The position numbers and the translations under genes are program-made. Below are positions 28,707-31,769 of a DNA stretch of 51,859 nucleotides, piece after piece (position 1 is the first letter of the stretch; the number at the start of each line of letters is the position of its first letter). The notes beneath the pieces were generated by a model that did no database searches, was not told the origin of the DNA, and saw nothing but the letters and a program-made list of their open reading frames with translations. The DNA is from an uncultured Nitrospira sp. (lineage in GTDB: Bacteria > Nitrospirota > Nitrospiria > Nitrospirales > Nitrospiraceae), in contig CABVRV010000001.1 in the NCBI GenBank assembly GCA_902500755.1, forward strand, positions 61,904-113,762, read 5' to 3'.

Positions 28707-30302
28707 ATGCAAGAACGCAAACCACGATTTGTATCTCTCTCGGGACTCGACATGAATCGCGTGTATACGAGTGCCGATCTGAAGGACTGGTCATCGGATG
28801 ACGAGCTCGGCGCACCGGGTGAATTCCCCTATACCCGTGGTGTCTACCCAACCATGTATCGCGGACGGCTCTGGACGATGCGGCAATTCGCTGGGTTTGG
28901 ATCGGCGGAGGACACCAACCGCCGCTTCAAATATCTCCTCCAGCATGGACAAAACGGCCTGAGCGTTGCATTCGACATGCCGACATTGATGGGGGTCGAT
29001 GCCGATGATCCCCGCGCGCATGGAGAGATCGGTCACTGCGGCGTCGCAATCTCGTCGCTCGACGATATGGACAGGCTCTTCGACGGCATTCCGCTCGATG
29101 AGGTCACCACGTCGATGACGATCAACGGTCCGGCCGCCGTGATCTTTGCGATGTACCTTGCGGTTGCGGAGAGGCGTGGCATCCGTCATGAGCTGTTGGA
29201 CGGCACGTTGCAGAATGACATTCTGAAAGAATACATCGCGCAAAAAGAGTGGCTCTTCCCGCCGGAACCGTCGCTCCGCCTGATCACCGACACCATCGCC
29301 TACTGCGCCGAGCATGCACCCAAATGGCACCCGGTCAGTATCAGTGGATATCACATCCGTGAAGCCGGCTCCACCGCGGTACAGGAACTGGCCTTTACCC
29401 TGTATGACGGCCTGACCTACGTGGAAGCGGCGGTGAAAGCCGGTCTCCCTGTGGACCGGTTTGCGCCACAGCTCTCGTTCTTTTTCAATGCCCACAGCGA
29501 CTTCTTCGAGGAGATCGCCAAGTTCCGCGCGGCCCGTCGACTGTGGGCTCGAGAAATGACGCGACGGTATCGGCCAACCGATCCGCGTTCGGCGCAGCTC
29601 CGCTGCCATGCGCAAACCGCCGGCTGCTCTCTCACGGCTCAACAGCCGATGAACAACGTGGTTCGGACGACGATTCAGGCCCTCGCGGCTGTCTTGGGCG
29701 GCACGCAGTCTCTCCATACCAATTCAATGGACGAAACACTCGCGCTACCGACCGAGGGCTCGGTGAAACTGGCACTTCGGACGCAGCAAATCATCGCGCA
29801 AGAGAGCGGAGTCACCAACAGCGTCGATCCGCTCGGCGGCTCCTATTATGTCGAAGCCCTCACGAATCGCCTCGAAGAGGCGGCGCTGGATTACTTTCGT
29901 CGGTTGGATGACATGGGCGGGATGGTCCGGGCGATCGAGCAGGGATTCCCGCAGCGTGAGATCCTCGACGCCTCGCAACGGTACCAACGCGAGCTGGAAT
30001 GGAAGGAGCGCATTATTGTCGGCATTAATGAGTATGTGGAGCCAGAGGAACGCTCGATTCCGATTCTGAAGGTAGGCCAGGAAGTCGAGCGTGAACAGGT
30101 GGCGCGTCTGTCTGATCTGCGCAAGACGCGTGATCCATTCAAAATGGCCGGATCCGTCGAGGAACTGCAGGAAGCTGTGTCATGTGGGGAGAATGTGATG
30201 CCGTATCTCATCGAGGTCGTGAAGGCCAAGGCGACGTTAGGTGAGATTTGCACGGCTCTGAAAGAAGTGTTGGGCACGTATCGGGAGCCGGTGGTGTTAT
30301 GA
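28707..30302 (+). CDS. B12-dependent acyl-CoA mutase large subunit, isobutyryl-CoA mutase type
   Basis: A 531-residue TIM-barrel subunit of the methylmalonyl-CoA mutase family, without the B12-binding domain. Landmarks are [41 protein letters not shown]-type [10 protein letters not shown], and [19 protein letters not shown]. The residue next to the acyl carboxyl site is Phe61 (RQFAGF) and the second is Gln179 (YIAQKEW). Methylmalonyl-CoA mutase has Tyr89/Arg207 and isobutyryl-CoA mutase Phe80/Gln198, each 118 apart, as here. Ala88 argues against 2-hydroxyisobutyryl-CoA mutase, which has Asp. It should isomerise isobutyryl-CoA and butyryl-CoA with the small subunit at 31362. GGAGGAG precedes the ATG. 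Confidence 0.88.
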
Positions 30303-30522
30303 GGGGTGGCTCAGCTGACGAAGGGCGGGCAGCTTCTCGGGCGCCATTATGCGATGGAGCAAGGGCAGCAATTGAAGGTCAAGAGTGTTGGCCGCTCGCC
30401 TTATCGGATTAGAGGAACGGCGGAGCGGCAACCTGACAGCGTCTTGAAATGGCAACCGGCGCTGTGGCGAAAACCTCCGTGTCCACACTCTTGCAGCTGA
30501 GGCCCGGAGATATGGAGAGAGG
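30303..30522. other. Intergenic spacer inside the mutase operon
   Basis: About 220 bp separate the mutase large subunit from the MBL gene, the longest gap in the plus-strand block. A 64-codon frame (30306-30500) lacks a recognisable protein pattern and has no good ribosome-binding site. I see no terminator hairpin. The AGAGAGG at its end serves the MBL start. Confidence 0.4.
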
Positions 30523-31371
30523 ATGATGAAGCTCGGTGCGTTTGAAATTTATCCGGTGAGTGACGGCCGGTTTCGGCTAGACGGTGGGGCTATGTTTGGT
30601 GTGGTGCCGAAAGTCTTGTGGGAGAAATGCTGTCCGGCCGATGAGTCGAACAGGATCTCGCTCAGCCTGACCGCTCTATTGATCCGTGCGAATGGGAAAA
30701 ACATTCTCGTGGATACTGGGCTCGGGCCCAAGGAAGACGAAAAGTTTCAACGAATGTTCGCCGTGGAACGGGCCCCGACGATACTAGAGTCGTTGAAGCG
30801 ATTAGGTCTGGGCCAGGAAGACATTCATCTAGTCATCAACACGCATCTGCATTTCGACCATGCGGGTGGAAACACGATGCAAGAGAATGGGTCCGTCCGA
30901 CCCACCTTCCCCAATGCCAAATATTTCATTCAGCATGGCGAGTATGAAGACGCAGCTCGCGCCAATGAACGGACGAAAGCTAGTTACCGACGGGACAACT
31001 CTACACCTATCGCCCACCTGAACCAGTGGGAATTCTTGCAGGGGGATACCGAATTACTGCCCGGCATCACTGCCGTGGTGACCGCCGGCCACACGCGCTT
31101 TCATCAGGCGGTTAAGATCGAATCAGAGGGACAGACCGCGTTCTATCTGGGCGATCTGATCCCGACCGTGTCGCACCTGCCGCTTCCCTACATCATGGGC
31201 TACGATCTCTTCCCTCTCCAGACCTTGGAGACGAAACGATGGGTGTTGGATCGAGCGTTTGAAGAACGATGGCTCCTGCTCTTCGAGCATGATCCATCGG
31301 TTCAGGGTGGGTACGTTCGAAGGGACGAGGAAGGCAAATATTTTCTTCACGAGGTAACGACATGGCAATAG
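30523..31371 (+). CDS. MBL-fold metallo-hydrolase
   Basis: A 282-residue metallo-beta-lactamase-fold enzyme with a full dinuclear zinc set: THLHFDHAGG (HxHxDH), His of GHTRFHQ, Asp of YLGDLIP, and a later His in LFEHDP. The layout resembles AHL-lactonase-like and other hydrolase members of the fold rather than glyoxalase II. It lies between the two mutase subunits, and its stop overlaps the small-subunit start by ten bases, so it is tightly linked to that pathway. A thioesterase- or lactonase-like role on acyl-CoA intermediates is possible but not shown. Confidence 0.85.
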   Translation: MMKLGAFEIYPVSDGRFRLDGGAMFGVVPKVLWEKCCPADESNRISLSLTALLIRANGKNILVDTGLGPKEDEKFQRMFAVERAPTILESLKRLGLGQEDIHLVINTHLHFDHAGGNTMQENGSVRPTFPNAKYFIQHGEYEDAARANERTKASYRRDNSTPIAHLNQWEFLQGDTELLPGITAVVTAGHTRFHQAVKIESEGQTAFYLGDLIPTVSHLPLPYIMGYDLFPLQTLETKRWVLDRAFEERWLLLFEHDPSVQGGYVRRDEEGKYFLHEVTTWQ

Positions 31372-31769
31372 CGAGCGCTCCTCTGCGGATTCTGATCGGC
31401 AAAGTCGGTCTCGACGGCCATGACCGTGGTGTGAAGCTTATCGCGCGTGCCTTACGAGATGCCGGAGTGGAAGTCATCTATACCGGTCTGCATCGGACGC
31501 CGGAACAGGTCGTCAATACGGCGATCCAAGAGGATGTGGATGCGATCGGTTTGAGTATCCTGTCAGGCGCGCACAAGACCCTGTTTCGACGCGTCCTCGA
31601 GCTGCTCAAAGAACAGGATGCAGAAGACATCGCTTTGTTCGGCGGCGGAATCATTCCCGATGAAGATGTCACGACGCTCACAGCGGACGGCGTGAAGGCT
31701 CTGTTCAGGCCGGGAGCCCCTATTCAGGAGGTCGTGGAGTTCGTCAAAGGCCTCAAATGGCGGGACTGA
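31362..31769 (+). CDS. Acyl-CoA mutase small (cobalamin-binding) subunit
   Basis: A 135-residue B12-binding domain. It carries the DxHxxG signature as Asp18-Gly-His20-Asp-Arg-Gly23 (His20 being the lower cobalt ligand), then SILSGAH and GGGIIP for the nucleotide-tail pocket. Its length equals the separate small subunit of two-component isobutyryl-CoA mutase (about 136 residues), and the large subunit lies one gene upstream. Starting ATG 31362 overlaps the MBL gene end; the carboxylase gene follows after 6 bp. Confidence 0.9.
   Translation: MAIASAPLRILIGKVGLDGHDRGVKLIARALRDAGVEVIYTGLHRTPEQVVNTAIQEDVDAIGLSILSGAHKTLFRRVLELLKEQDAEDIALFGGGIIPDEDVTTLTADGVKALFRPGAPIQEVVEFVKGLKWRD

Follow-up and report, generated by a model that had tools for sequence, protein, structure and literature searches.

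This work concerns an acyl-CoA mutase and its gene cluster in a 51,859-nucleotide stretch of DNA from an uncultured Nitrospira sp. (GenBank assembly GCA_902500755.1, contig CABVRV010000001.1, positions 61,904 to 113,762 of the forward strand; hereafter the window). The 531-aa and 135-aa proteins encoded there most probably form an adenosylcobalamin-dependent isobutyryl-CoA mutase (ICM) of the IcmA/IcmB type, which would be loaded by a MeaB protein and act in valine catabolism. We make this assignment because the active-site residues, the tree and the gene neighbourhood point to it, and because a search of the whole genome did not turn up what a methylmalonyl-CoA mutase (MCM) would need. The genes at the centre of the analysis are the following:

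28707..30302, plus strand, acyl-CoA mutase large subunit, IcmA type (TIGR00641, PF01642, F61/A88/Q179)
30523..31371, plus strand, metallo-beta-lactamase (MBL)-fold hydrolase, between the mutase subunits (PF00753; lactonase_YtnP 220 bits, cut-off 425)
31362..31769, plus strand, B12-binding small subunit, IcmB type (TIGR00640 152 bits, cut-off 57)
35158..35943, plus strand, MeaB-type GTPase chaperone (TIGR00750 269 bits, cut-off 241)

Translation of the 531-aa open reading frame (ORF) at 28707-30302 places Phe61, Ala88 and Gln179 at three sites which, upon alignment to chains of the Protein Data Bank (PDB), are Tyr/Ala/Arg in human MCM and Ile/Asp/Gln in 2-hydroxyisobutyryl-CoA mutase (HCM; chain 4r3u). 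A first-pass annotation, made from the letters of the window alone, had claimed Phe61 and Gln179 in place of the Tyr and Arg of MCM, and both the translation and the alignment bear this out. Its use of Ala88 against an HCM signature stands as well, the trio being invariant in all 21 aligned Nitrospirales sequences, the window's own included. The 118-residue spacing that it had also put forward is arithmetically right (179-61) but has no diagnostic value, as MCM and HCM share it (89/207 and 90/208 in what we take to be their numbering). In MCM, the Tyr and the Arg bind the carboxylate of the substrate. The window protein thus has Phe and Gln at both ICM specificity sites where MCM has Tyr and Arg, and Phe and Ala at sites 61 and 88 where HCM has Ile/Val and Asp. 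The equivalent residues are F80/A107/Q198 in all six actinobacterial 566-aa IcmA-type proteins that were checked. Beyond these sites, six alignment columns (61, 94, 111, 179, 180 and 181) split Phe/Gln mutases (75 rows) from Tyr/Arg mutases (39 rows) almost fully, and the window mutase shows the Phe/Gln state in every one of them. Residues 215-217 read YHI, of which Y215 and H216 are common to the human MCM and HCM chains. A Propionibacterium chain in the PDB list, 5req, has Phe at the first site and is presumably the engineered Y89F form of that MCM.

The only NCBIfam model that the large subunit matches above cut-off is TIGR00641, 'methylmalonyl-CoA mutase N-terminal domain' (756 bits; 736 bits against PF01642), and an automatic annotation would therefore name it MCM. 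The earlier contention that such a name would be wrong gains support from residues, tree, neighbourhood and the unfound MCM partner genes. The best PDB match is HCM 4r3u (557 bits), while the fused IcmF chain 4xc6 is matched in part (304 bits). IcmF itself is not what the window encodes: the IcmF model NF045497 is reached with 383 bits (cut-off 1500), and mutase, GTPase and B12 domain lie in separate ORFs. Against the query, the classical MCMs used for comparison show 42-47% identity. Raw identity was set aside as evidence, because Tyr/Arg mutases reach 61% and an approximate IcmA sequence 54%.

Columns 61, 88 and 179 were removed before all tree building, which comprised an LG tree of 111 rows (chosen from 159 and including the approximate IcmA sequence) and a 69-row C20 tree in a quick and a careful version. 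In all three trees, every Tyr/Arg row falls on one side, and the Phe/Gln and HCM-type rows fall on the other (joined, in the 111-row tree only, by F/A/Y rows), with an SH-aLRT support of 90 in the 111-row tree and 98 in the quick C20 tree, and a bootstrap/SH-aLRT support of 92/88 in the careful one. The careful tree unites actinobacterial IcmA-type and Nitrospirota rows in a 30-row fork (88/94) with HCM outside, the three HCM-type rows forming a separate 100/100 branch, and it needs just two changes to account for the Tyr, Phe and Ile/Asp-type states. The window mutase is accordingly placed outside the MCM clade by all three trees. In approximately unbiased (AU) tests, a grouping of the Nitrospirota with three split-type MCMs was rejected (p 0.00017), whereas a grouping with five long-branch classical MCMs was not (15.3 log units lower, p 0.283), nor was, on a coarse tree, a grouping with all Tyr/Arg rows (p 0.604); that last constrained tree even outscored the free one, which came from a short search, by 15.5 log units. 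Because a place among MCM rows survives two of the three completed AU tests, the phylogeny supports the ICM assignment without proving it. Two mutases with F/A/Y at the three sites (L206 and L207) are about 44% identical to the query and sit on a long branch of the 111-row tree.

The small subunit, 135 aa long with a DGHDRG motif starting at residue 18, finds its best PDB match in the HCM small subunit (4r3u_C, 149 bits). A separate B12 subunit of IcmB type, which the first-pass annotation had taken as a mark of ICM, is indeed present (28707-30302 and 31362-31769 for the two subunits), yet it is not specific to ICM, as the Tyr/Arg mutases of Ilyobacter and Acetoanaerobium possess a small B12 subunit of their own, with epimerase and carboxyltransferase genes adjoining. 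Between the two subunit genes lies the MBL-fold gene, unmentioned in that annotation despite falling within the interval it covered. The gene shares a 10-base overlap with the B12 subunit gene and encodes 282 aa with HLHFDH from residue 108. It adjoins the mutase gene in every one of the 28 further Nitrospirales loci that reach beyond the mutase (a 29th, L024, ends within the mutase; loci may overlap in species), and it precedes the B12 subunit gene wherever the locus reaches that far. An annotated MBL-fold gene was also seen beside an F/A/Q mutase of Natrinema (L127).

Profile searches of the window's own genome, which is 94% complete, were scored against model cut-offs. The window mutase is its one PF01642 protein, and no other mutase was seen. 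Three PF01039 matches were found, namely the carboxyltransferase encoded beside the mutase and two short proteins read as AccA and AccD, without any second carboxyltransferase of propionyl- or methylcrotonyl-type in this search. Likewise, nothing above cut-off was found in the genome for methylmalonyl-CoA epimerase, mmsA (methylmalonate-semialdehyde dehydrogenase), mmsB (3-hydroxyisobutyrate dehydrogenase) or 3-hydroxyisobutyryl-CoA hydrolase, for all four of which matches below cut-off exist; these cut-offs are strict, being passed in 5 (mmsA), 1 (mmsB), 2 (hydrolase) and 8 (epimerase) of 14 control genomes. A source of methylmalonyl-CoA would call for a propionyl-CoA carboxylase (PCC) together with the epimerase, and the sole carboxyltransferase of the right size is that of the cluster, which resembles the methylcrotonyl-CoA carboxylase (MCC) type by most matches, its top match being labelled PCC beta. 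The genome search also gave two biotin carboxylases, in frames 462 and 505 aa long, and neither is obviously an MCC alpha.

Among the matches listed, which may leave out the records nearest to the window, the closest named relatives are Nitrospirae bacterium NC_groundwater_1033 (86%), Nitrospira sp. W63 (83%), Nitrospira sp. UBC2 (80%) and N. defluvii NOB1 (79%). The mutase occurs in 21 of 59 genomes of the genus and order, the window's included (23 matches, all at least 73% identical), and its distribution within the genus is patchy (14 of 35 genomes, again counting the window's own). A classical MCM in the 59 genomes would probably have shown, because proteins of 42-47% identity surfaced in other genomes by the same search. 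Carboxyltransferases were surveyed in 22 mutase-bearing genomes, i.e., 20 of the 21 (G049, with a partial match, was omitted) plus UBC2 and NOB1. A full-length MCC/PCC-type gene stands beside the mutase in 15 of them and elsewhere in none, apart from extra fragments in G008, one of which adjoins the second mutase copy of that genome. In the remaining seven (G029 in the genus and six outside it), no carboxyltransferase beyond AccA/AccD-sized matches was detected, an absence that is suggestive only, since these genomes are 71-92% complete.

The query was also run against the entirety of 46 named genomes. The two Nitrospira among them hold a single mutase each, as do five of the 44 others. The 40 regions taken around further mutases (seven weaker or partial matches were omitted) consist of 36 Y/A/R mutases, one fragment showing R only, one I/D/Q and two F/A/Y mutases. 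For a count of neighbours within 8 kb, 73 Phe/Gln loci (the best 80 minus seven Nitrospirota) were compared with 37 Tyr/Arg loci, leaving out plasmid, I/D/Q and F/A/Y loci. An epimerase or methylmalonyl-type carboxyltransferase lies near none of the 73 Phe/Gln loci and near 15 of the 37 Tyr/Arg loci. The reverse holds for acyl-CoA dehydrogenase (18/73 versus 0/37), crotonase (16/73 versus 1/37), thiolase (10/73 versus 0/37), 3-hydroxybutyryl-CoA dehydrogenase (9/73 versus 0/37) and MCC-type carboxyltransferase (10/73 versus 0/37), and at least two of the four beta-oxidation genes were found at 10 Phe/Gln loci and no Tyr/Arg locus.

In the window, the cluster runs on the plus strand in the order tyrosine-degradation-like genes, E1 alpha, E1 beta, E2, thiolase, 3-hydroxybutyryl-CoA dehydrogenase, mutase, MBL-fold gene, B12 subunit, MCC-type carboxyltransferase, enoyl-CoA hydratase, hydroxymethylglutaryl-CoA (HMG-CoA) lyase, MeaB, crotonase, PrpD, PrpB, PrpC and acyl-CoA synthetase, with gaps that are mostly short or replaced by overlaps, the largest being the 220 bases 3' of the mutase. 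Besides the four genes given above, the features are:

19727-22453, plus strand, tyrosine-degradation-like genes at the head of the cluster (4-hydroxyphenylpyruvate-dioxygenase-like, homogentisate-dioxygenase-like, FAA hydrolase; matching NCBIfam models all below cut-off)
22222-23208, plus strand, ORF resembling phosphoribosyltransferases (weak match to pyrE_Therm), within the catabolic cluster and kept in relatives
23218..24228, plus strand, 2-oxoacid dehydrogenase E1 alpha, assigned from context to the branched-chain type (best PDB match 1um9_A, '2-oxo acid dehydrogenase alpha subunit'; NCBIfam pyruvate dehydrogenase models below cut-off)
24265..25263, plus strand, 2-oxoacid dehydrogenase E1 beta (best PDB match 1um9_B; NF006667 352 bits, cut-off 321)
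25375..26517, plus strand, 2-oxoacid dehydrogenase E2 acyltransferase (PF00198, PF00364, PF02817)
26571..27758, plus strand, acetyl-CoA acetyltransferase (thiolase; TIGR01930 448 bits, above cut-off)
27755..28666, plus strand, 3-hydroxybutyryl-CoA dehydrogenase (NF004474 397 bits, cut-off 408; NF005875 323.5 bits, cut-off 319)
31776..33380, plus strand, carboxyltransferase, MCC beta type (PF01039; PDB matches)
33382..34239, plus strand, enoyl-CoA hydratase family, methylglutaconyl-CoA hydratase-like by context (PF00378; NF005675 239 bits, below cut-off)
34055..35161, plus strand, HMG-CoA lyase (NF004283 401 bits, cut-off 246; match from residue 66, the true start probably lying downstream of the ORF start at 34055)
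36077..36868, plus strand, short-chain enoyl-CoA hydratase (crotonase; NF005803 285 bits, cut-off 313)
36904..38307, plus strand, 2-methylcitrate dehydratase-like PrpD (NF042438 217 bits, cut-off 950)
38326..39255, plus strand, methylisocitrate lyase PrpB (TIGR02317 353.9 bits, cut-off 354.4)
39191..40399, plus strand, 2-methylcitrate/citrate synthase PrpC (TIGR01800 480 bits, cut-off 421)
40341..42101, plus strand, AMP-forming acyl-CoA synthetase (PF00501, PF13193)
6160..8103, minus strand, long acyl-CoA dehydrogenase, one of just two found in the genome (best PDB match very-long-chain acyl-CoA dehydrogenase, VLCAD)
10511..12487, minus strand, long acyl-CoA dehydrogenase, the other one found in the genome

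A VOC-family ORF at 19727-20320 was considered as a methylmalonyl-CoA epimerase and rejected (55 bits, cut-off 115); against the 4-hydroxyphenylpyruvate dioxygenase model it reaches 97 bits, below the cut-off of 277.

From the residues, the conserved gene order and the lack of alternatives above cut-off we infer substrate, direction and flux along the following lines. The MeaB encoded in the cluster would load the mutase with its cofactor, and the B12 subunit would supply the 5'-deoxyadenosyl radical that takes a hydrogen from isobutyryl-CoA, whereupon the CoA-carbonyl group would shift to the neighbouring carbon to give n-butyryl-CoA. Phe61 and Gln179 would suit such an uncharged substrate, in contrast to the Tyr and Arg of MCM, which bind the free carboxylate group of methylmalonyl-CoA. 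Valine would reach isobutyryl-CoA through the 2-oxoacid dehydrogenase, and the butyryl-CoA made by the mutase could be turned into two acetyl-CoA by acyl-CoA dehydrogenase, crotonase, 3-hydroxybutyryl-CoA dehydrogenase and thiolase, so that the mutase route would replace the classical route through methacrylyl-CoA and 3-hydroxyisobutyrate; propionyl-CoA derived from isoleucine may enter the methylcitrate cycle. With slightly less than even confidence, we speculate further that many Nitrospira degrade valine in this manner, by a dedicated conserved cluster that replaces the classical pathway and involves no methylmalonyl-CoA, that the MBL-fold protein is a dedicated partner of the mutase, and that in many other phyla the same Phe/Gln mutase, filed as MCM, works in a similar capacity alongside a true MCM.

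The gene order E1-E2-(thiolase)-3-hydroxybutyryl-CoA dehydrogenase-mutase-MBL-B12 subunit-...-MeaB recurs among the relatives. The leucine module is absent from the cluster in G037, G038, G044, G051 and G053, where mutase, MBL-fold gene, B12 subunit and MeaB are kept. Between B12 subunit and MeaB, its place is taken in G037 by a thiolase-domain gene together with a small OB-fold gene (L279 15251-17010), and in G038 by two ORFs, one of 427 aa and one small (L280 15402-17164), matched by position and size only. G037, a relative of the same order, has a cluster that comes close to a full set for the proposed pathway. Its gene for a 383-aa short-chain acyl-CoA dehydrogenase shares its last base with the start of the mutase gene; the protein scores best against short-chain acyl-CoA dehydrogenase (SCAD, 411 bits) and also matches butyryl-CoA dehydrogenase 1buc (354 bits) and ACAD8 (244 bits), the last of which we take to be isobutyryl-CoA dehydrogenase. 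A second acyl-CoA dehydrogenase gene, likewise of short-chain type, lies 3' of MeaB, and the pair (L279 11271-12422 and 17743-18897) flanks the mutase-MeaB genes; no crotonase was detected within the 20 kb read.

A number of observations weigh against the valine pathway or the ICM assignment and temper both. The weakest link of the pathway is butyryl-CoA oxidation in this species: the only two acyl-CoA dehydrogenases found in the window genome are both long and VLCAD/FadE-like, and the search showed none of short-chain size. Among relatives that keep the mutase, G018, G012 and G031 showed no thiolase in the cluster, and G018, G031, G037, UBC2 and NOB1 no crotonase there. The branched-chain role of E1 rests on context, since the model that E1 beta passes, NF006667, bears the name of pyruvate dehydrogenase. 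In the other phyla, 63 of the 73 Phe/Gln loci lack two or more beta-oxidation neighbours, and many have no such neighbours whatsoever, including all ten of Ignavibacteria and Melioribacter. The best 80 Phe/Gln loci had come from patterns containing F61 or Q179, so their Phe/Gln state, though not their neighbours, was partly selected, and p-values overstate the evidence because the loci are related and not independent. The identities of up to 61% to Tyr/Arg mutases and the two permissive AU tests belong to the same side of the balance, as does the carboxyltransferase at 31776..33380, whose top PDB match is 9tps, labelled PCC beta (721 bits), ahead of 4q0g AccD1 (716 bits) and MCC beta chains (693 and 676 bits); other chains labelled PCC beta give at most 272 bits.

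The two permissive AU tests and the label of that top match, along with the family name from the sole NCBIfam model above cut-off and the occurrence of a separate B12 subunit and MeaB in true MCM operons, are what speaks for an MCM with unusual residues that carries propionyl-CoA carbon to succinyl-CoA, as the current annotation has it. We regard this as quite improbable, as both carboxylate-binding residues are replaced, no epimerase rises above cut-off in the genome, the prpBCD-like genes of the same cluster can handle propionyl-CoA, seven of 22 mutase-bearing relatives (71-92% complete) show no MCC/PCC carboxyltransferase, epimerase or PCC-type genes occur near none of the 73 Phe/Gln loci, and grouping with the split-type MCMs is rejected. 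HCM, the closest solved structure, is barely credible as an identity for the protein, even though 4r3u is the best PDB match of both subunits and HCM sits within the same Gln-bearing clade; Phe61 and Ala88 occupy the positions of its Ile90 and Asp117 in all 21 Nitrospirales sequences, and the HCM-type rows branch apart. It is the residues at sites 61 and 88 that led us to discard HCM.

It is unlikely that a mutase of the Phe/Gln class acts here mainly on another substrate, be it 2-methylbutyryl-CoA/valeryl-CoA from isoleucine, isovaleryl-CoA/pivalyl-CoA from leucine, or a range of branched acyl-CoAs. In favour of this reading, more than one branched-chain acid is handled by the cluster, Phe and Gln alone leave chain length unfixed, and IcmF has side activities on other branched acyl-CoAs of this kind. 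Yet the linkage is to C4 enzymes (3-hydroxybutyryl-CoA dehydrogenase, thiolase, crotonase and, in G037, SCAD), and leucine has its own genes in the cluster, which are absent in relatives that keep the mutase. An ICM running from butyryl-CoA to isobutyryl-CoA, and so priming iso-branched fatty acids rather than degrading valine, we consider very improbable: the isomerisation is described as reversible in an excerpt of PMC7764203 and a fatty-acid gene cluster lies upstream on the opposite strand, but the 2-oxoacid dehydrogenase and the leucine and tyrosine degradation-like genes of the cluster could already supply isobutyryl-CoA.

As a probable ICM, the window mutase can be set beside several known systems. 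The Streptomyces enzyme consists of two separate subunits, as here, carries Phe/Ala/Gln at the three sites (judged from the 566-aa actinobacterial sequences) and falls on the same side of the tree; it differs in having a large subunit of 566 rather than 531 aa, with about 54% identity between the window protein and the approximate IcmA sequence, and the Nitrospira subunit genes flank an MBL-fold gene within a catabolic cluster. The HCM of Aquincola tertiaricarbonis (4r3u) likewise has separate subunits, Gln at site 179 and the closest PDB chains, and differs at the sites of Phe61 and Ala88, where it has Ile and Asp. The split-type MCMs of Ilyobacter and Acetoanaerobium share the large and small B12 subunits, MeaB and 55.6-56.5% identity, in contrast to their Tyr/Arg residues and their linkage to epimerase and carboxyltransferase. 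IcmF of Cupriavidus metallidurans (4xc6) is an isobutyryl-CoA mutase by name, yet its parts are fused into a single protein, G domain included, where the window has three separate genes. Strain TGB-C1, which we take to be Syntrophothermus lipocalidus, offers a precedent for a catabolic ICM by its published description; it is an anaerobic syntroph fed isobutyrate, whereas the Nitrospira relative has an amino-acid degradation cluster. The passage concerned reports that isobutyrate is isomerised to butyrate for beta-oxidation (Slip_0757-0760), with a MeaB-like gene in the cluster (PMC5017805), and a portion of PMC2847961 links the Streptomyces ICM to polyketide building blocks.

Misannotation of ICM as MCM is already known from the IcmF case, according to the excerpted part of PMC7764203, and a two-site specificity rule is cited in an excerpt of PMC7238569. 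The enzyme type is thus known; its use in Nitrospira appears to be unreported, as no report of an ICM in this genus was found in the one open-access literature collection searched. Extracts of earlier genome studies name an MCM in N. marina (PMC8115632), list mcmA1A2 among the acid-resistance genes of strain NS4 and note prpCBD in Nitrospira (both PMC12542776). A link to the genes of N. marina and NS4 is presumed from the 23 mutase matches of genus and order, all at least 73% identical to the window mutase. Should the assignment hold, part of the B12 demand of nitrite oxidizers would be tied to amino-acid catabolism rather than to propionate metabolism, and a testable organic-carbon pathway would be at hand in a group studied mainly as autotrophs. 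The simple set of residues and neighbours would also serve for re-naming a widespread set of mutases.

Further upstream and divergent from the mutase genes, the minus strand carries a fatty-acid beta-oxidation cluster (6160-18692) with acyl-CoA synthetase, thiolase, 3-hydroxyacyl-CoA dehydrogenase, enoyl-CoA hydratase and the two long acyl-CoA dehydrogenases. Within it, a beta-eliminating-lyase gene seems to be split over the overlapping minus-strand frames 8113-8892 and 8699-9511.

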